A stretch of 64,000 nt of DNA, taken from Paramacrobiotus metropolitanus (lineage: Eukaryota; Tardigrada; Eutardigrada; Parachela; Macrobiotidae). A model generated the notes under the pieces. It searched no databases. It was not told where the DNA came from and saw nothing but the letters and a program-made list of their open reading frames with translations. This document shows, piece by piece, positions 13,201 through 62,324 of this stretch. The position numbers and the translations under genes are program-made. How positions within the stretch are numbered: the stretch's first letter is position 1; every line of letters starts with the position of its first letter. The stretch spans positions 2,232,001 to 2,296,000 of the forward strand of contig NW_026570225.1 in assembly GCF_019649055.1 (NCBI RefSeq), in the 5' to 3' direction.

Positions 13201-16200
13201 CCCATAACGATGTAGGTCGTGTTCTGTGATTACCTCCCCGTAGCTTATAATCGTCCGCTAATTTGACCGTCTCTCGTCAATTGCTACTTGTAGGAAAGTA
13301 AATCGCCTGTCAAATTAAACCTTCTTACTTGTCAAGCCAAAGTAAGTGGAACGACTTTTTACCTGGTCTTTAATTGGCGTTTGTTACCGTTTTTAATCTG
13401 GTTCAGTGCTTCCGAAGCCAGTCGGTGTTCACGTTGGTTCTGTGTATAGGTGGTAGTCGATGACAAGCGATGTTTCGACCTGGTGTCAAGTAGGTTTACT
13501 GCCTGCTCCTTTTAAAAACATAATGAATGCTTTACTTCATAATTTTTAAGAAGTCAAAAAGTTACTCTAATTGTAATAATTTATTCTCGCGTTATGAATC
13601 TTGTTGCATGCTTTTGTGTGAGAGTGATACATCAGTTCTTATCTTCTAGAATTCCGAACGTACCACTTCCAAGCGGAAGACGAAAACGAAAAAGAAGTCT
13701 GGTTAAGCGTCATTCTGAACAGTAAAGAACAAGTACTGCAACAAGCCTTTGGTCGGGACGCCACGGACGGTGGACGACGCTTCTCGACAAACATTAGTGA
13801 AATTCGAGATACGCTGATCAAGCAGGTTCAGAAGCTGCCGGGAAATAATCGTTGTTGCGATTGTGATGCAGAGAAAGGTGTGTAAGCGGTTTTTAAGCGT
13901 GGGAAGTGATTATTGAATTTCGTGTGGTGGTGATTGTAGATCCGACGTGGCTAAGTACGAATTTCGGCGTGCTGACGTGTATTGAGTGCTCGGGTGTACA
14001 TCGTGAGATGGGAGTCCATATTTCACGGATACAATCGCTGACGTTGGACAATTTGGGCACGGCGCAGCTACTTCTGGCACGCACCATGACCAATCTGCTC
14101 TTTAACCAAATTTTTGAAGGCAGCTTAAATAACGTACGCAAGCCAACGGCAGCTAGTACAATGTAAGTTCTTATTATGCGAGGAATTGAATTGATGGCCG
14201 AAATCAACAGTTTAGGGTGTTAGTGAATACATGACGACGACTTATTTACTGATCCTTATGTGATATTTAAAAGAATGTAGGATATAGAGTTTTCTCGGGT
14301 ACGATGCCGTGTCAAGTTACTTTTCTTCTAAAACTAATTTTAAATTAGAATTATTAGATTATCAATCTGATCACTTTGTAATGCAGGAATTGTGAATAAA
14401 TTAATTATGGTGCACATGCAGGGCTCCAACTGCGACGGGTGTCTGAATTATTTTGGAATATATGCATGTGTTTAAAGTCACTGCCGTTCACGAAGCGGCA
14501 GGTATATTAGACAGGATTCGTGTGTGATGCGAGTTATGCATGTGTCACAAGTAGTAGTTTAGCCTAAAACAGTGTTCTCAGATTTAGATTTCCGTTCGGT
14601 TACAAAATTTGTTATCATAAGTTTTCCGTTTTGTATAAAAACGGGCGGCTAAATTAGATGCGCTGTGCCTTTATAGCGTAATTAAATAAAATATTAAATT
14701 AAGTGTCTCATAGCGTTTGCGAACCATGAATGGGATTTTTTAAGCTAGATATCACATACTCATTGTGCATGCTTGACTGCAGGGACGATCGGATGCAATT
14801 TATCCGCGCCAAATATATTGACAAGCGCTTTGTTACGCCATCCTGTCAGTCGGATGAGCAGCGTCAAGAGAATTTGATGAACGCATTACACAATCGCTAC
14901 CTGCATGGACTAGTCCAGTTGTTTGCCGAAGGTCAAGATTTGGCGTCCCCGCTTGCGCAGTCGGTAAGTAGTGCTTGCGATCTTTACAATATAACTTGGA
15001 ATAAAAATAAATTGTCGACTTCTGTAAAAGTGCTTTTATTTGGTTGTGCTTTAGCTTTTATTTGTTTCACAAAATCTTCCAGAATTCTGTTGTATGCTAA
15101 CTTGAGTTTTTATAGCTTTGCTGATTGTAGTGTACTTAAAATATTAACGTTGAGAAGTTTGAAATTACCTTTTCGAGTGATATTAAAGTAACCAGCGTTA
15201 CCTATACATTGATCCTGTGATCGTAGGTTATTGATGAGACGCCTCTGCATTTTTTGATTCGCGCTGGTGACGATAGTCTGACGTTACCGTGTGCCGATTT
15301 CATAATTCAGAGCAGGTAGGTTGGCGGTTGCTGCGGCGAGTGTTTTCGATACTTCTATGAATAGTTAATATTGCATGTGCATATTACGCCGTGATTGCAG
15401 CCGAAGCATTAACCGGGTGGATAGAAACGGTAATACTCCTCTGCACATTTGTGCTGATCTCAACCGCACCGAATCCATGAAATTACTACTGAAAGCCGCC
15501 GCTGAGCTGGATGTTAGAAATCATGTCGGTGAAACCCCGCTGGATATTGCCCATCGGAAGAGACACTCTCGCTGCATCGATCTGGTGAGTGACCCTGCAA
15601 GACCTAATCCTTACTGTCCTCCTACCTGTAAATGTTCTGTAAATAATCAGTGTTGATTGCTTAATTCTTTCTCACTTGGATCGTTCATTTTGCAGTTGCA
15701 GTACGCGCAAAGCGGTAAAAAGGACAAGTTTGAGAACGTGGAAATCGATTGGTCACTCCTTGATGTAAGTTTATGTTGGGAAATCGAATTCCTGTTTTAT
15801 AAAACACTGTAAGTATTTCCAGTACGCGGAGCTTTGCATAAACATACTGTACTCATGGTTTGTAATCTAGCGCAGCCACAGTAACCGCTGCAATTGGAAA
15901 CATTATGGAATTTGATTGTTGTTTTAGGATGAAATGGCATTTGACAGCGGCGATTATAGCGACGATGAGGGAGAAAACGGTGACTTGTCCAGTCATGCTG
16001 CCAGCCAGCGTCGTTCCTTTCGCCTACCCCGTCCCGGCAATACCTTCACGCCACTCCCGCCCATGTCCGTCCACCCGGTCTCGCCGCTCAAACCCAATCC
16101 ACCGCCCAATCTGCACAATTACTTCTCGGGTCTCTACCAGAAGCCAGTCCTCAACACCTCCCAATCCATGACCGGATCCTCCTCCAAGAACAGCTCTGTG

Positions 16201-28137: not shown

Positions 28138-29352
28138 TTGCTGTTTTTCTTTACTGGTCGGTTCGATAAATTCTGCATAAAGTTAAAAAAAAATTCATCT
28201 TGATTACTGGTTGCTCGACTTCGTTTGCGTAGCAGTAGCGGCATTGTAGTATAGTAAGGTACAATTTATGAAAATACACCTCGCTTTTGACATATTAGTT
28301 AGTTCGTGAAGCTACCTTCTTCGGATCCATGCTTCCGTATGCAAAATGAAAAAACGCATTTTGATTTGAGTGTTCGACTGTTCGTGGTTAGGCTTACGCA
28401 GAGCATCTCGAGCAGGATGAAGCTTACACCCAAAAGGAAGAGACGATCTGTGAGGGATTCGTTTTACTTTTTAGTTTGAACTTTCTTGGTTAGCGAATTT
28501 AGGGCAGTTCTTATTCAGCAAAATGCTGGATCAACAGATTCGTCAGACTAGCGACAAAACGCTAGTCTGGTGAAGTAGGCTGTGAAGGTCTTTCTGTTCA
28601 ATTTTTCCAAACATTTATATTTAATGCAAAACAGTAAACAAATATGGGTATGATTTTCTTTATTTATTAGTTTTATTTATTTGCGAATTGTCGTAATAAT
28701 TTTGTATAGATGTCGTCTTTTGCAAATCGGTTACTGGTTAGCTCTTGTATACTTACTTCTCTATGAGCAGCGTGTTGAGAAATTGTTGCGTAAATTAATT
28801 AAATGGTTGATAATGATACAGTTGTTTTACTGTAATTAGCTGTTACAGCCTATTGTTAGTTTTGAGCTGCCTCAATGTGGAATTCATCGTCAGTATCGTG
28901 ATTCGTGAGATAAGCAGTAGTCACTAGTCGGCATTTCCGACTCTATATGTTTTCAGGCTGCAAAAATATTTTCGCTCTATTAATTTCTACACAACAATCG
29001 AAGCTGTTCTGTGCTGAAATTTGCAGTTCTAGGACTGAAGCCGACAAGACGCATAATTATGAAAGTTTCTTTGGAACTTTGCTTTGGGATTGTGAGGCAA
29101 TACTAGCACGTCAACAGTGCGAAACCATTATCTGTAGTCTGTACGTCACAAACCAGGAAACGCAAACAGGAATACAAACACCAACTCCATAAAATCAAAA
29201 TTAAAGGAAGACATAAATAAAAATTCTGTGTAACCGTAAAAAAAGAAAAGCAGCCGCGACTCAGGTATCGAGTGTCTGACCAGAAACTAGGATCATATCA
29301 CATCTCAGTTGAATCAAAAAGGGCGCAAGGATACAGTATACTGTAAACAGGG
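28138..29352. other. Convergent spacer between eL6 and KIF13
   Basis: Holds the two 3' flanks. No gene seen. A CATAAAG sequence near 28174 could be the eL6 polyadenylation signal. A perfect hairpin lies at 28544-28569. Confidence 0.5.
28544..28569. repeat. Perfect 10-bp hairpin
   Basis: CAGACTAGCG, a six-base ACAAAA loop, then CGCTAGTCTG. Function unknown. Confidence 0.85.
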
Positions 29353-41300: not shown

Positions 41301-44300
41301 TTCCTATTTTGCGTACCAAAAAAATGATTGTACAGAAAAGCCAGATAACAAAACAAAAATATTCCCGAAGTTTCTGCGCTAGAATTCAGTACCTTTAGCA
41401 GCCATGTCAGCACGGAATCACGGTAAGGAATAAACGCATTTTTTCCTCTGTTGCTGGACTGATCGGCCAACGCAGAAATAACCAAACCAAGTGTTGACAA
41501 TGACCTGCAATATCCAGTTAAAGTTCAAATTTGAACAATAAAAATAATGTTGCAGAACAGATACAGAAGAACAAATCGTTCATAATCCTTTTCTATTATT
41601 TTGATATGAACCAACTTGTTAATGTTGCTTCCTTCCTTAAGACGTTCGCCTTCTGCGCCCGTTTTCGAAGCTCTTTCGCTTCCGGCCAGATCCACCAAAC
41701 TAATACGACTAACTTTTCTCCCCGCGAACCTACAATCAGGTAAAGTCTTTAATCGCATAACGTCGTACACGATTAAAAACATGATAATTTATTCTCCAGT
41801 ACGTAATTTTTAATTTCTTTACGCTTTACGATAAGCTGCAAACCAGCAACACATACTCCACGTTCTGAAAGACGCAGACAAAAAAACCTTTTTGTCGAAA
41901 ATAAGTTTTTAATTACAGTATATTTTAAAAATAGTTTTCATAAGATGCCGTTTCCAGTTTTAAAAATTTCTCAACCTGCTAAAAATGTTTCCTAAAAGCA
42001 TACCTTCTTAAGTTAAGTTTGAACAAATTAAAAATAAGTAACGAGAACAGATAAATTAAACATTTCGAAATGAATGAAATAATCCTTCCAGTTCGTCTGA
42101 AATAGTTTTATTTCGCGGCAGTACTGGAATAAACGGATCCTTCGGAAAAGAACTATTCTTACACCAGATGCCACATCCTCCATGACCTGCGTCAGTACAA
42201 TTGTGAAAACCGCGTGTGAACGGCTGCTTTCGCTGTTCATGTTCGTGGCTGCAACCGTTCGCGCCTTGTTCCCTTCTGCCATCAAAACATCGATATCCTA
42301 AAAAAGCAGATTTACGTATCAAAACCCCCGCAGTCCATACTGCAATGCTGCAGTGCACACTATAAAAGCGCTGACCTAGTAAATAAGTACTAGTAATCGA
42401 AAAATCTACTGGCAACACAAAGCAGATGTTTCCATATTTTTCAAGCCGCAATTACAAATACATTCGTTTCAAAACTCTCAGTGATGATTGTGCCATAACA
42501 GGTGACTAGTCACAAAAGCATTACGCTTCACAATTCACAGGTAAGGGTTAATCATATGGAACTACCACAAATTACATTAGTTTATCTATTGCACTTTTAG
42601 AATACCATTAATCGGCATTTCTAGCGATAATAATTCTACTGTTAACCATTTCCAACCGCTTCGTCCACGTGGCATTAATAACCATAATACACACTGCGTG
42701 ATGCAAAAATTCCGAGACCCACGCCCAGCAAAAATAATTAATTTACCAACCTCAAACGATTCAACCGCTGCTATAGTCAAGCCGTCCACGTAAGGGCCCA
42801 AAATGTTGTGTTCCCTTACACGCAAACTCTGTTTGGTTCTACAAAAGTCGTACTAGATGAGTATTACAATGCATGAGGACAATAAATCCTGCATGTGGTC
42901 AAGGTAATATGAAGTAGATCTTTGCATCCACCCAAATCCTAATGTTATTTTACCCTCTCGGACTAAGCAGGTCGTAGACCTTCTCGTTGTAGATTTCGAT
43001 GTACGATACTTCCACTTTGTACAGTACATTCTTCCTGACATCATCCTCCACTCGCAGAAATAAATCACTACATAACCGCGGGATTATACCCGGCTGTTCC
43101 AGTGAGCCCATCATCGTGTAAGACTTCCCGGAACCTACAAATATTCACGAAGCCGAATTTAAAACGACAGCCCTGACCATTCTCTTCTTCCCTAAATCAA
43201 TTGTTACACATACCGGTTTGTCCATACGCGAAGATGCAGGCGTTGTATCCTTGAAAGGCATTCTCCAGAACACTGCTTCCCACAGCACTGTACACATCGT
43301 CCTGATCTGTAGCGTTGAAATCCAATTACGTGTATGCACCCAGAACGGTGAATTACGAAAACACGCAAAAAATTACAGCGCCAATTTTTCTCTTACCCGC
43401 ATAATGGGGATCGTCGTGACGGCATGACCAAAAACAGTGATCAAAGGTGAATGGTTTCTGATGCTTCCTGCAAGAACGCATCTACGTTTACTAAACATTT
43501 TTATCTAAAGAACCAAGTGCAATTATTTTCCAGTCACAACAGCATGGAATATAATATTAGTGTACTATGCATCCTTTATTCTAGATTTATTGTCGGTTCT
43601 ACTGACGTTATTTTTATATTATACCAACAGTATTGGTACCAAACTATGGTAAGAAGAGCATGAAAATGAGAATTCACGCTGCGTGCAGCTGCGATGATCT
43701 GGTTTCAATTTAATCACACAGTGTTTATTTTGCAGGCTGCAGACTTATAAATGTTGAAGAAATCAAGGCTCCAGATTAACTGTGAATACACACTAATGCC
43801 TAAACCATAAAACAAACAAGATAGATTCAAATCCCTAATAAACAGGAGAGGTCAAGTGCATCAGACGAATGCGTGAATGCTTCTAAAGCGACCATTAAAA
43901 TTCGCCCACGCTCACAAAAACAGCCGCCACTGACCAACGGTAATCGGCTATTTACGGAGATGGTCTCACAGAATGGATATATTAAATATTTTGTTACGAT
44001 CCATCAAATTTCATTATCCAACCCATTACGACGATGCAACTAACAGTACCGTCTACACTTATAATCATCTATCACCAATCTCCGTAGTATTTGTTCAGTA
44101 TAAAGCCATTTTTCATCTTTTTCTTTATGATATGGGCCATTCCCATAAAGCTATGTCGAAACGCATTTCAATCAAACTGCCGGTCATCGAGCAATGGTCT
44201 AACTCAATCTGCAATACAATTACAACGGAAGTATCTCCCGCCGGCGTAAGTGGACGCGTCCCACATGTGACCTTGCATATTTTATGAGCGAGTGAGTGTC

Positions 44301-55156: not shown

Positions 55157-58100
55157 ATGCCACGAGCGCAACCTACACCTTCTACGCCTTCCAGCGGAAG
55201 TAAAACGCAGTCGAAATTAACATCATTTTTCACTAAGACGCCGGAAACGACAAGCAGAAAGAAGAGCGATGTCCAAGTTTCGCTCACAAAAAGTGCCGCC
55301 ACGGTCTCAACGGAATCTCCTGCACACCGCACAGCACCAGTTCCTCGTTCTCCACTGCAGCTTCCTTCGACCAATCGTTCGTTCACTGCAAACGTTGATG
55401 CGAAAGGTAAATGGGCTCGCTATCTGTGTATCGCGCTCTTTGTCTATGTATAATGTATCTCATCGGTGAAGCAAGCGCAGTTTGTAGTCTTGATATTCTG
55501 GCTGGTTAAGTTGTCAGCCGGCGCAACATTACTTAAACGGCATTTAGTATAGTATTGCTTGTAATCGAAGAAAAGCAAAACCTCAGTTTTCATGGATAAA
55601 ATGTTTTTGGAATGCTATCCATGTTTGTAGCCGCTCAGTATTCTGCCGTCACTGTTTGGATTGTGCCTTTGTGAAGAGTTTCCGCAACATTCTTTTGAAT
55701 ATTTGGATCGTTGTGGTTATTTAATTTTCTTTCGAAACGATTTAAATAAAATGAACCGATTCTTTGTTTTATAGAGGACAGAGATGTAGAAGATGATTCG
55801 GATGGCGAACCAACAACATCTCGGCGCGCCAGGACCAAGACTGCTAGACCAGTAATCGACGACAGCGAGTCTGGTACGTTTGTAGGTATTATAAAAATAT
55901 GCTGATATTCAGCAACCGACGGACTTCACGTACTTCAGCCAACGTATACGTCGCTCGTGTCTGATAATACCTGGAGATTGGAAATTTCGGGATTAGAAAT
56001 TTTTCGTTGTGTGCCACAACGCATGTTTTCCGTTGATTTTGTGTGCTTTTCGGTGTTTTTAGAAGTGGAGAATGCTGTCGAAAAGGATCCTGATTTTTCC
56101 GCAGATGATTTTGATCTGCAGTCCGAAAGCAGCGCTTCCGAAGGAGAACCCGAAGAGCAGGCAGTGACAGAGTCAGAGAATGAAGACGCTTTGGGTGAAG
56201 CAAACGCTTTTAAGGTATTAGTATCAGTCTATCAGAAACTACCATTTAAGCATTAACTGAAATCTATACTTCTAGCTGCAATAAATATTTATGCTTATGC
56301 ATGACTTTTCCCCTAATTTGTAATAGGGGTTTTTTGCTGTATAACAGCAAACGGAACTCAGTAAAGGTTGATATATATTTTGATGGGAAGTAAGCCTTAC
56401 GATTGCTTTTAGACACCTAAGAAGCGAAAGAAAAATGATTCCAAAAAAGATGTGAAGAGACAGGCGGTACAATCTTCCCGTGGCAAAGTAGTTTCTCGGT
56501 CAAAACAAACCACAGCCATTTCTGCTAAAGCGGCAAATGGGAAAACCAAGAAACAGAAGAATGATTCCGCGATGGATATTGATGAGACTGCCAATTCAGA
56601 AGGTACAGAGCGTGTATTCAGTACGAGCGTGCCCAGGTACATTCTTATAGTTCAAGTACTGTAAATAGTGAATTGTTATAGTGCGTAACAGAGCTGGTCC
56701 GATAAGTCATCGGAGGCCTCCGCTTTGTACGATAATTCCGATGTTTTCATCGGAAAAAGCGGTAAATTTTGATTTTTCCAACGGACTTTTGAAGAAAAAA
56801 AGTGAGTCCGAAGGTGAATTTCTATGCCGGCGCCTCCCTAAAAGACGTCACGAATTTACTAAAACGCCTTTTCAGCAAAAAGTCAACAGCTTATTTTTCA
56901 AAATTGTAAATTCAGTTCCGAGGAACGCACCGGTGAATGTCGGCCAGTGCGAATTTTCACGTAAAAATTTTCGTTTTTTAATCGGTTTATCGTGTCGGAA
57001 ATTTTGAGCAAAATCGTAGCGGTATCGGAATCGTATCGGACAGTTTAGTTATCGGATCGGTATCGTAGCGGAGGCGAAAAATTCATATCGGACCAGCTCT
57101 GGTGCGTAATGTGTTGTTTTTGAGTGCGATATGTTTATTGGTGGTCTTAATATGCTAATCAGAATAGTTACGGTAGTTCTGGTGACGTACTTCTGTAGTT
57201 TTTCTTTTTCTTCTTAGACAACGGGGACGATGTTCAGGACGACGGAGAAGGAGAAATAGTTACGAAGCACACTCATGAATCACTGTCATGGTTGCAGCCA
57301 AATGTCGCAAAGTAATGAAAGCCTAGTCACATGGCTTACATATAAATTTTCAGTCAGGTGTTGCTGTTACACATACTTTAGGGATAAAGAGGGAAAATTA
57401 CACAGAGATCTGTTGGAAAACGGAATCGTTCCACGAACACTGTCCATTCCTCCAAATTTTCTCGCCAAAGACTGCACGCCGGTATTCCGGATTGTCCCTG
57501 TACAGTTTCGTTTTTTGGTGCATTGGTCTTGCGTTATTCTGAATTGCAGGGTCTACGACATTGGTGGGAAATCAAGTCGGACAACTTTGACTGCGTATTA
57601 TTTTTTAAAGTGAGCTGCAAGTTTTCCGCATTCTTTGTAATTTATGTTGAGATTTCTGTTTTTAGATGGGAAAATTCTATGAAATGTGGCACATGGACGC
57701 TGATGTGGGTGTGAACGAGCTGCAACTCACTTATATGCGGGTGAATCAATCGGCATTGATTTTTGCCTAGTTGCCCCTTGATTACGTATTTTGGGACTCG
57801 CCTCAGAATATCACTTATTGTTGTTATTGCTAGGGTGATCATGCACATTGTGGATTTCCGGAAAGATCAATGCCTCGGTACTTAAATTTGGCTGTGTCGA
57901 AAGGGTATAAGGTAGTTAGAGTGGAGCAGATGATGACTGCACAACAGCTGAAGGAAACGAAAAGTACATCGTTCTTTGGAATTGCCCACCTGGATTGTAG
58001 TTGTCTCTTATATGAGCATCGTTCGGCATTGTAGACAAGCAAATGCCACGAGAAGTTGTTCGGATCCTGACACCCGGCACCCAAAGCGTTAACACTTTGG

Positions 58101-61100
58101 ACTGCGAAAGCGAAAAGCAGGGAACGAATGCTTCGTGCCTGCTCGTGATAGCGGAAAAGGTTCGTTCCGCATTGCTGTTCAGTATTGTACCACGTATGTT
58201 CCGTATACTGTAGCTTTTGTTAATACTCAAATTGTTAAACGGAAAATTCATTGTAGGTCCGTGCAGACAGCAGCGGCTCACAAGAGCACGAGTACGGCAT
58301 ATGCGTTGTGTATCCTGGCCCGGGGAATTTTTGGGTACGGACACTCTTTTCTTCCAGCAAAATTTATCGTTCAGATTGCATTCATTATTGTTTGGGCATG
58401 AAGAATTATTTGAAGTATGAAGCATTTAGAGGGTATCAGGGTTCGATGTTACAGGTTGGACAGTTTCAGGACGACCGCTATCATTCGCGTTTGCGAACTC
58501 TTCTTGCCATCCACTCTCCGACTGAAGTATATCTGATTGTTGTTTCAGATGAAAGACTCTGAGCTAAAAGTGATGTTTATTTCCAGATTATCTTGGAACG
58601 AAACAATGTTTCACCTGCTTTGATGGAGTTACTACGTACCAACACAGAGACAGTGTGTCGAGAATATTTGGCTCCGAATAAAGAGTTTCTTTCGGTTAAA
58701 GAGGCCGTGAAATTCTTGTTGGAACGAGAATATTTTGGTCCTGTGATGAATCCCTCATGGCCGGAAGTTATACGTAGCATGTTGGACTTGGAAGGTAGTA
58801 GCTTGCCTACACCGAAAGCTTCATACGATTTAGCCATTCGATCACTTGGAAGCTGTGCTTGGTAAGCCAAAGCCGTTTTCTTATACTTCGAGGAAATGTT
58901 GTAGCTGTTTGGTTTACAGGTATCTTCACAGATGCAAAATCGATTACGATATCATTTCCTTGAAGAACTTCGAGTTATACGCGCCGGCTGATGGTAGCAG
59001 TGCCAATGTTGTGAAGAAAAATAAACAAAAGCAGATGGTATAGTCCCAGGAAATGAATTAATTATTAATCAGCTTAATGACGGTTAAACATTGGTTTAGA
59101 TACTGGATGGAATGACGCTAATTAATTTGGATATTGTTCCTGGCCCCAGAAGTGATCCATCTTCTTGTCTGTTGAGGAAGATTGACAAATGTAAAACCAG
59201 ATTTGGTATGATAATCATGACGTTCTTTAGTTTTCATGCATTACATTATTTGCATTGATCACAGGACTGTTTGCTTATTAGGAAGGCGCCTGTTGAAAGA
59301 ATGGCTGGTTGCGCCTTTGTTTCGTGTTGAAGAAATTGAAGATCGGCAAAAGGCTATGGAAGAAATTGCGACATTCAGGCAGGATCATAACAACATTTAC
59401 GCCAGTGTCAAAAAAATGTTACAGGAGTTGCCGGACTTGGAACGGTTGCTGAGCAAGTACGCTTGTTTTTTCTTAATAAATTTTCATGGTTCTCAGTTTT
59501 TTTATGCTCTTTCAATCGCAAATGTGATCGTATTTTCTCAGAATCCACATTGTTGGATCTTTGAAGCGTCATAAAGAGCATCCCGAAACACGTGCAGTGA
59601 TGTTTGATGACACTCATTATGGAATTAATAAAATAAAAGGATCTGATCGCCGCCATTAAAGGATTTGATTCAGTTATGAATATCAGCAGACAGCTCAGTA
59701 AATGTTTTACAAATGCACGGTATGGAGTTATGCACGATATATTCTGAAGCTTGGTTCGAGTATTATCACCATTGCTTTCCTTTTTGCAGCTCTTTGGTTC
59801 TTCGCCAGGTGATTGGGTGTTGCACTGATAGCATTTTTCCCGAAGGTCAAATTCCAGATTTAACCAAAGTATTACGGCATTTCGATGTAAGAAATCTTCG
59901 TGTCCCTGTGTTCATTAAGTTTTGCTTTATTTGACAGAAGCTGAAAAGCAGTAACTTTTTTAGAAAGCGTTTGACAAAACGGAGGCAGCGAAAGCGGGTA
60001 AGATCGTGCCGTTACCTGGAGTGGATACACAGTTTGACGACGCTTTAAAAGAAGAGCTAGCAATAGCCGATCAACTAGAAATACATCGCATGGACGTTAG
60101 CAAGAAATTGAAATGCAGAGTAAGAATGATTAATATTCTTATTTTTATGAGCACAAGTTTTTGATTTTGACGCTTGAATTGCATTTGCTGCTTGCAGACT
60201 GCCTACTTCCATCAGGCTCGAAATCGTTTCCAGTTGGAAGTACCGGAAGATGTTAAAGTCCCTGGTAATTTTGAACGGAAATCTGGGAAGAAAGGCTTTA
60301 TTAGATATTGGACAGACGAAATAAAAGAACTACTTCCCTCACTGGTGTCTGCGGAGGAGCGTAGGGAAGAGGCCGGAAAAGGATTGCACGCGGAGGGTAT
60401 TCGAAAAGTTTGACCTGCAGTAAGACAGTTGCTTCTGTCCCATTTGTTTTGCAACGTATTGCATCCACCAGGTTCTAATTTTCACTCTTTTTAGTTACGC
60501 GGACTGGATGTGTGCAGTTAAATGCACGGGAAAACTGGATATCTTATTCAGCCTTGAGGAATACTCCAGTAATCTTTTGCCAAACAGCTGCATGCCAAAG
60601 TTCAGAGAAGCTGTAGCGGAGCAGCAGTCGTTCATCGCTGTTCGTGACGGTCGGCATCCATTGGTAATGACAACATTTTCCAAAGGGGAATTTATTCCTA
60701 ATGATACCTACATTGGTACTGGCGAGGTAATCACGACTACACGTTTAGATGAAATTTAGAAAAAAGCCTTAAATGGGTAATAAAAGAACATTTTTAATTA
60801 TGTGCAGCCAGATCAGCCATCAAGGACGGGGACTGTAGTTCTGGTAACTGGACCGAACATGGGCGGGAAAAGCACTTTGATGAGACAAGTTGGAATTATT
60901 GCTGTTTTGGCGCAGCTCGTAAGTTGGGGACTAAACATGAGCTGAACCTTTTATTTGTGTTTGTGGAAACAGAAGTGAACGACAATTAGTAAAATGTTCA
61001 TCACATAACATACATAAGTTTCCATCCGGCCTAGTATAATAGGCAGCGCAAAAAGTGGATAGCTTGGTATGTGGAAATTACTGCTTACCCCTTTTTTGTT

Positions 61101-62065
61101 TTCGCGCAGGGTTCGAGAGTACCGGCAACTTTCTGTGAACTGACACCAGTGGATCGTATTTTCACTCGGATCGGAGCTTCTGACAACCTCCTTGCCGGTT
61201 TGTCTGTGTTCTGAGCATTTGGTCAGCTCAGTTAAGTGTTTTGTTTTCTAACTTTTCTTCTCTTAGGTGAAAGTACATTTTTTGTGGAACTGAGCGAAAC
61301 TAGCAGCATCCTTCAGCATGCCACGACCAACTCCTTGGTGCTGATTGATGAGTTAGGCCGAGGTACAGCCACATTCGATGGCACCGCCATTGCGGCAGCC
61401 GTTCTCAAGGCCCTGGCTACTCGTGTGAAATGCCGAACTTTGTTTTCCACACATTGTACGTGGCTTCTTTTCACGAATCCAGTAAGTAAAATGATCCACC
61501 TAACATAAAACTACTTATTTATAGATCACTCTTTGGTGGACCGTTTCGGAAGCTGTCCGGATGTTAAACTCGGCCATATGGTAGGATGTGTTTTCCAGAA
61601 ACTAGTTCTTTCCCCAAAATCAGAAAATATTTTTGCATGTGTACGTTTGTGGTTTCAGGCCTGTTTAGTTGAAAACGAAGACGAAAACAATCCTACAAAA
61701 GGAGACTGTAACGCTGCTGTACAAGTTTATGGCCGGGGACTGTCCCAAGAGTTATGGTTTTAATGCGGCCCGTTTAGCTGGCATTCCTGATGAGGTACGA
61801 GGTTGTCGTTTTTATATTTTGACCTCTCGTTCTAATCGTGCCTTGTATGCATGCTTGAAATTATTTTGTTGGAGTACGGGAGCGTTCCGTTATATCGAGC
61901 CTACATTTTAATCATCTTATAGATTGTGACACGTGCTCGTATTAAAGCCGTGGAAATGGAAAAAATTATGCAGATAGGTAAGTTACAGTAATTTCCTCTG
62001 GAAGGCGCTATGGACTTGCGAAGAATGAAGTTATGGTTTCTAGGAAAAGTAAAACTGGATGCCTG
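55157..62065 (+). CDS. MSH6: DNA mismatch repair protein MSH6, with three apparent frame disruptions
   Basis: With MSH2 it recognises mismatches and one-base loops. Exons: 55157-55406, 55775-55873, 56063-56214, 56413-56602, 57218-57311, 57382-57481, 57550-57609, 57666-57740, 57834-57963, 58035-58159, 58257-58334, 58455-58526, 58587-58861, 58920-59037, 59100-59205, 59282-59456, 59542-59719, 59790-59886, 59964-60119, 60198-60419, 60495-60726, 60808-60918, 61110-61197, 61267-61455, 61525-61580, 61659-61794, 61923-61977, 62043-62065. Seen: PIP box QSKLTSFF (residues 18-25); acidic/basic linker with PKKRKK; mismatch-reading GKFYEM; Walker [33 protein letters not shown]. No PWWP domain. The sum is 3642 nt. 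One surplus base each at 59635-59640, 60369-60374 and 61697-61702 must be skipped to give 1212 residues. Confidence 0.93.
56689..57101. mobile_element. hAT-type MITE in MSH6 intron 4
   Basis: A 413-bp element with perfect 16-bp terminal inverted repeats (CAGAGCTGGTCCGATA and TATCGGACCAGCTCTG). It is flanked by an exact 8-bp target-site duplication, GTGCGTAA (56681-56688 and 57102-57109). The 8-bp duplication and CAGAG-like ends are hallmarks of hAT transposons. It has no transposase and so is non-autonomous. Subterminal TATCGGA/TCGGTATCG motifs repeat near the right end. It accounts for two-thirds of the intron. Confidence 0.95.
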
Positions 62066-62246
62066 AACTTTGGGGTTGTGATATAGTGTTGGACTGCCTT
62101 TTCGTTGATACTGGTCCGTTTATCTCAGATTGAGCTGTGAAAAAACGCGCTTGATGTCGTTAGTGACCGCTGTGCAAAATTTGAACTGGTCATTAGAAAG
62201 TGTGCAGTTGATGGTACATCTTCTCCTTTGTGTGAATAGTTTCTAA

Positions 62247-62324
62247 TTTTGAAATATCTGTACATCTTATCACTGTACATATAATTTTGAAATATCTGTA
62301 CATCTTTTGAAATATCTGTACATA
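62247..62324 (+). repeat. Triplicated 19-mer with Pumilio-like sites downstream of MSH6
   Basis: TTTTGAAATATCTGTACAT occurs at 62247, 62285 and 62305. TGTACATA, matching the Pumilio/PUF consensus UGUANAUA, occurs at 62274-62281 and 62317-62324 on the MSH6 strand, within about 260 nt of the stop. It probably lies in the 3' UTR. The poly(A) site was not located. Confidence 0.6.

Follow-up and report, generated by a model that had tools for sequence, protein, structure and literature searches.

The described cases of +1 ribosomal frameshifting closest to the one reported here come from ciliates, yeasts and animals. In Euplotes, most shift sites consist of AAA with UAA or UAG as the next codon, and +1 re-pairing of tRNA-Lys has been proposed to explain the shift (PMC10235951). 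Known +1 sites of yeast include those of Ty1 and ABP140 (CUU_AGG_C) and of EST3 (CUU_AGU_U) (PMC5009743, PMC10235951), and the heptamer CUU_AGG_C alone gives about 40% shifting (PMC5009743). The locus considered here is the gene for MSH6 at 55157..62066 on the forward strand of a 64,000-nucleotide stretch of the tardigrade Paramacrobiotus metropolitanus (assembly GCF_019649055.1, contig NW_026570225.1, positions 2,232,001 to 2,296,000), referred to below as the window. The conserved reading frame of this gene moves by one surplus base at three places, all of which fit the heptamer A AAA GGA in one phase. Judging from the sequence, it is somewhat probable that MSH6 is intact and is decoded by programmed +1 ribosomal frameshifting at this heptamer, three times in series.

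The gene model was assembled exon by exon with GT-AG introns and consists of 27 exons and a possible exon 28 (62044-62066, without homology support). With one base omitted per site, the 27 exons encode 1205 amino acids, and exon 28 brings the total to exactly 1213 codons counting the stop, the figure already given by a first-pass annotation of the letters alone. Read straight, the 27 exons run into a stop soon after site 1 and give a 738-amino acid product without the ATPase. The identity of the gene follows from MutS domains I-V and from a best match to MSH6 over MSH2, MSH3 and MutS. The families MutS_I, III, IV and V exceed the curated Pfam cut-off, MutS_II falls just below it (24.7 vs. 25.0 bits), and the match of the C-terminal 600 residues to human MSH6 has an E value of 7e-179, the ATPase being well conserved. 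Before site 1, 345 residues align to the human protein with no shift needed. The first ~250 codons have no human alignment; the statements on shifts made here cover the aligned parts.

The frame breaks were located with a purpose-written spliced aligner of protein to DNA, in which introns, gaps and frameshifts are all permitted, applied to the region 59050-62060. Exactly three +1 shifts were called at penalties from -12 to -25, at 59636, 60375 and 61698; at -8, one extra call appeared, right at the border of this region. Site 1 (AT A AAA GGA T, heptamer at 59635..59641, forward strand) was called at penalties from -8 to -25. Its surplus base lies within 59635-59640 by the human alignment and within 59634-59657 by stops, and a skip after AAA gives I K D L I. 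Site 2 (GG A AAA GGA T, heptamer at 60377..60383, forward strand; aligner shift at 60375) gives G K D C T and is the least sharply placed, as skips at 60367-60382 all score within 3 half-bits, 60373-60376 being best by one half-bit. At site 3 (AC A AAA GGA G, heptamer at 61697..61703, forward strand), where the aligner also calls a shift, the skip gives T K E T V; the best skip is at 61697-61702, with 61694-61696 one half-bit lower. The human alignment crosses sites 1 and 2 ungapped, while near site 3 a gap of one residue lies a few residues upstream; beyond each site, the +1 frame carries on with conserved, human-matching sequence. One surplus base at three places, flanked by conserved family sequence, had been proposed in the first-pass annotation; the exon model, the human alignment and the aligner all bear this out, and human MSH6 aligns on both sides of the breaks. 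The positions proposed there for sites 1 and 3 agree with the ranges from the human alignment. The one for site 2, 60369-60374, lies within the allowed 60367-60382, but the heptamer at 60377-60383 is also admitted.

One alternative is that the surplus base is removed or bypassed at the RNA level, either by editing or by splicing around the sites. An acceptor 10 bases downstream, which gives an exon from 61669 and was chosen by a gene finder, would bypass site 3. However, this acceptor swaps a human-matching stretch for unrelated residues. When shifts were forbidden throughout, the score fell from 1333 (penalties removed) to 1127, and the loss of about 206 half-bits was accompanied by false introns, an in-frame stop and the loss of conserved residues. 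Splicing around the sites, raised earlier as a possible refutation, is therefore not supported. Editing of single bases out of nuclear mRNA is not known to us from animals, and the RNA-level explanation is considered very improbable.

It is also conceivable that the three insertions are real and that the locus is an inactivated allele or a pseudogene copy of MSH6 with no functional product. Three breaks in one gene and none that is firm elsewhere in the window would suit this explanation, and an intact second copy might be located elsewhere in the genome. Against it, the 27 exons are free of stops once the three sites are bridged, all introns run from GT to AG, the ATPase motifs are kept, and random insertions rarely hit the same in-phase heptamer three times. 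A dead allele is thus regarded as improbable. The related suggestion of the first-pass annotation, that loss of MSH6 would itself raise the rate of one-base indels, fares no better. Loss of mismatch repair is expected to strike the longest runs first. The model keeps seven A5, A6 and A7 runs of MSH6 in frame, four of them within or between the human-aligned parts and three among the first 250 codons, where there is no alignment. With these runs in frame and the changes at A3/A4, the idea is not supported.

The main argument for recoding is the sequence shared by the sites. They fit ATA AAA GGA, GGA AAA GGA and ACA AAA GGA in the same phase, and a skip of one base after AAA yields Lys-Asp, Lys-Asp and Lys-Glu, the second residue of each pair being the one found in human MSH6 at just that position. 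The modelled genes comprise 4,799 codons with 74 in-frame AAA-G contexts. A shift is found at 3/3 of A AAA GGA and at 0/71 of the others, which divide into B AAA GGA (0/2), B AAA GGB (0/8), A AAA GHN (0/9) and B AAA GHN (0/52), where B in the first place and in GGB means not A, and H means not G. A separation this clean is one split in 64,824 by our own arithmetic; the rule was picked after the sites were seen, site 2 is not sharply placed, and the models outside the aligned parts presuppose no shift. The same contexts speak against AAAG as a general single Lys codon, as all 71 are plain triplets in the models.

Contexts that differ by a single base or by phase are not shifted. The exon of site 1 also holds, 15 bases beyond that site, an in-frame T AAA GGA (59657..59663, forward strand) that is read straight. 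The word AAAAGGA in another phase occurs without a shift as GAA AAG GAT in exon 3 of MSH6 (56081..56087, forward strand; no shift in the model, with no human alignment here) and as AAA AAG GAC in an ASAP-like gene (15718..15724, forward strand). Apart from the three shift sites, three AAAAGGA words lie in the second phase, one of which spans a splice junction, and none of them is shifted.

Simulated insertions rarely reproduce this pattern. When three bases were inserted at random with sharp placement, no triple in 200,000 shared an in-phase 7-mer and two in 200,000 shared a 6-mer; when each site was granted the range over which it can be placed (6, 16 and 9 positions), a shared in-phase 7-mer arose in 6/300,000. 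Insertions that lengthen runs did so more often under three weightings for long runs, with 26, 82 and 278 per 300,000 for the observed ranges and 7, 31 and 126 for sharp placement. The same heptamer in the same phase at three sites therefore favours +1 frameshifting. The first-pass annotation had offered assembly or base-calling error, an inactivated allele and +1 frameshifting unranked; the last of these now gains weight from the heptamer, a feature absent from that account, which also made no choice.

From these observations, we infer a ribosomal shift of the following kind. A peptidyl-tRNA-Lys with the anticodon UUU, paired to AAA in the P site while GGA occupies the A site, would slip by one base onto the overlapping AAG, and translation would resume at GAT (site 1), GAT (site 2) and GAG (site 3). 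In principle, such re-pairing would be feasible at each of the three sites, as tRNA-Lys(UUU) can pair with AAG as well as with AAA. A tRNA-Lys without its wobble-base modification is one conceivable cause of such a slip, and the preceding A may also contribute. Three sites in series require a high efficiency, since otherwise little full-length MSH6 would be made. Two other ways of decoding the sites were tried and set aside. A skip after GGA, with GGAN read as Gly, predicts Gly three times and fits the human Asp, Asp and Glu less well. A slip of -2 predicts one Lys too many, although the alignment is ungapped across sites 1 and 2, and is disfavoured by the residues. A stricter version of the frameshifting reading would be a fixed non-triplet rule in nuclear mRNA, by which every in-phase A AAA GGA is decoded at high efficiency as Lys plus a one-base skip. 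We hold this version to be doubtful. If it were true, such insertions would be nearly neutral and scattered through genes, and an animal would possess a Euplotes-like code in which the trigger is a sense codon and not a stop.

Several points weigh against programmed frameshifting. GGA is not rare, with 87 of the 308 Gly codons in the models, which gives no sign of a starved A site. The 62 nt after each site are no more stably folded than shuffled sequences (z = 0.71, -0.96 and 0.14; the test covered pseudoknot-free downstream folds), and no common downstream structure of the kind expected for stimulated frameshifting, whether of the antizyme or the -1 type, was seen. In the aligner-tested parts, A AAA GGA is a shift site in no other gene of the window. 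The heptamer rule is post hoc; site 2 may lie up to ten bases upstream, with 60373-60376 favoured by one half-bit on alignment alone; and the evidence comes from one assembly only. Isolated frame breaks in draft genomes result most often from sequencing or assembly error. Such an error would here have to be a context-dependent overcall before GGA, with AAAA called for AAA or GG for G, made three times in a real gene that lacks the surplus base. Each site can indeed be written as an insertion of this type adjoining an A run, with A3 extended to A4 or a single G doubled. Furthermore, a single insertion would create AAAAGGA at 26 coding loci, 15 of them in the shift phase, and the chance that three random ones would all be in phase is 0.175. 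Eight of those 15 lie in MSH6, and three hits there have p = 0.02 (56/2600, own arithmetic). With 8/26 of the one-insertion loci in MSH6 and in the shift phase, clustering alone is mildly unlikely and counts as weak evidence.

However, similar sequences in the window speak against an overcall. The models keep in frame 170 coding homopolymers of at least 4 bases, 44 of which have 5-7, although not all of them are reference-aligned. AAAAGGA shows no excess, with 11 copies on the two strands of the whole window vs. 14.6 expected from shuffles, and the MSH6 sites make up 3/11. Its possible precursors are not depleted either, with BAAAGGA found 30 times vs. 27.7 expected and AAAAGA 81 times vs. 76.7 expected. 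The unaffected T AAA GGA just past site 1 points in the same direction. Error is considered possible but rather unlikely.

The same aligner was used with references from the PDB on other genes of the window, at three penalties. No shift was needed at any of them in the poly(A)-binding protein (374 residues), in the ArfGAP-ankyrin part of the ASAP-like gene (269 residues) or in ribosomal protein L6 (242 residues). The motor of a KIF13-like kinesin (306 residues) gave one weak +1 call at 41717 on the reverse strand at penalties of -12 and -16, which was gone at -25. Its context, GAG AAA AGT TAG, is unlike A AAA GGA. Splicing of the KIF13-like exons at the local donor and acceptor with the best scores breaks the frame near 41717, but a likely micro-exon of 8 bases (41857-41864, reverse strand) between the exons 42163-42297 and 41616-41729 keeps the frame, with a loop that is three residues longer. 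With a weak call and an ordinary explanation, 41717 was not counted as a fourth shift site; if a shift there were real, A AAA GGA would be incomplete as a rule, and only AAA in the P site would be general. The remaining gene parts were covered by a fixed-codon gene finder only. Its control on MSH6 failed, with false introns placed round the shifts, and its silence there is no negative; these parts may hold further sites. In the aligner-tested parts of the other genes, no firm frame break was found, and all three lie in MSH6.

When set beside the described systems, MSH6 shares features with each of them. As in Euplotes, AAA would be the P-site codon (by far the commonest one in that ciliate), one-base insertions beside AAA create sites, and a stimulator is described as unnecessary (PMC10235951). 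In contrast, Euplotes has a stop as the A-site codon and does not strictly depend on AAA (PMC10235951), whereas GGA stands in the A site at 3/3 sites of MSH6; and the Euplotes sites are abundant in the transcriptome (PMC10235951), whereas three sites in one gene are seen in this animal. The P-site slippage proposed for MSH6 resembles that at yeast CUU_AGG_C (PMC5009743). The codons differ, however, and the A-site codon of Ty1 is read by the tRNA of a single-copy gene, while GGA in the window is not rare (PMC5009743, PMC10235951). With antizyme, MSH6 would share the property of a nuclear animal gene that needs +1 frameshifting for its full-length protein (PMC5009743). Unlike MSH6, with three sense-codon sites and no structure found, antizyme is described with a single stop-codon site, stimulators and control by polyamines (PMC5009743). 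Animal mitochondrial genes offer the precedent of a single surplus base in a conserved gene that is tolerated via frameshifting, but MSH6 is nuclear and has 27 introns (PMC5009743). Among the literature matches listed, which leave preprints and most subscription papers outside their scope, no nuclear animal gene uses A AAA GGA as a shift site. The number of sites in series is a further feature of MSH6; the +1 frameshift genes of yeast have one site per gene.

Taken together, the MSH6 case is probably, by a modest measure, one of real recoding and a new form of +1 frameshifting. If this is true, efficient +1 shifting that requires no stimulator extends beyond yeasts and Euplotes, and the origin of non-triplet decoding becomes testable in an animal. 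The level of mismatch repair may then be tied to the efficiency of frameshifting. Annotation may also discard such genes as pseudogenes.

Several other features of MSH6 were observed. No Pfam match to the PWWP family was found before MutS domain I, and the N-terminal QSKLTSFF is presumably a PIP-like motif. With exon 28, the C terminus ends shortly past the ATPase domain. A scan of viral contigs for relatives gave matches at 47-51% identity among the best 80 of 299 stretches, and these best 80 look like bacterial or phage mutS. Intron 4 harbours a short element (56684-57106) with inverted ends of 21 nt that are 90% complementary. As read from the sequence, it contains CAGAGCTGGTCCGAT and has GTGCGTAA on both flanks; we take it to resemble a hAT-type MITE. 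About 200 bases downstream of the possible exon 28, a short tandem repeat of ~20 nt occupies 62273-62324.

Besides MSH6, the window contains genes for the ASAP-like ArfGAP, the poly(A)-binding protein, ribosomal protein L6, the KIF13-like kinesin, which apparently terminates in a CAP-Gly domain, and an FR47-type acetyltransferase; this gene content is eukaryotic and by itself would point to an animal as the most likely source. Their names were partly suggested by a self-trained gene finder, the models of which (two giant genes) were discarded. No tRNA genes or Rfam families were found in the window. An AAAAGGA word at 28432-28438 lies 3' of the gene for ribosomal protein L6, in sequence that is not classifiable as coding. 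Near the start of the window, at 245-898, a unit of 163 nt is present in three direct copies, of which the middle one shares 70% and 84% identity with the outer two.
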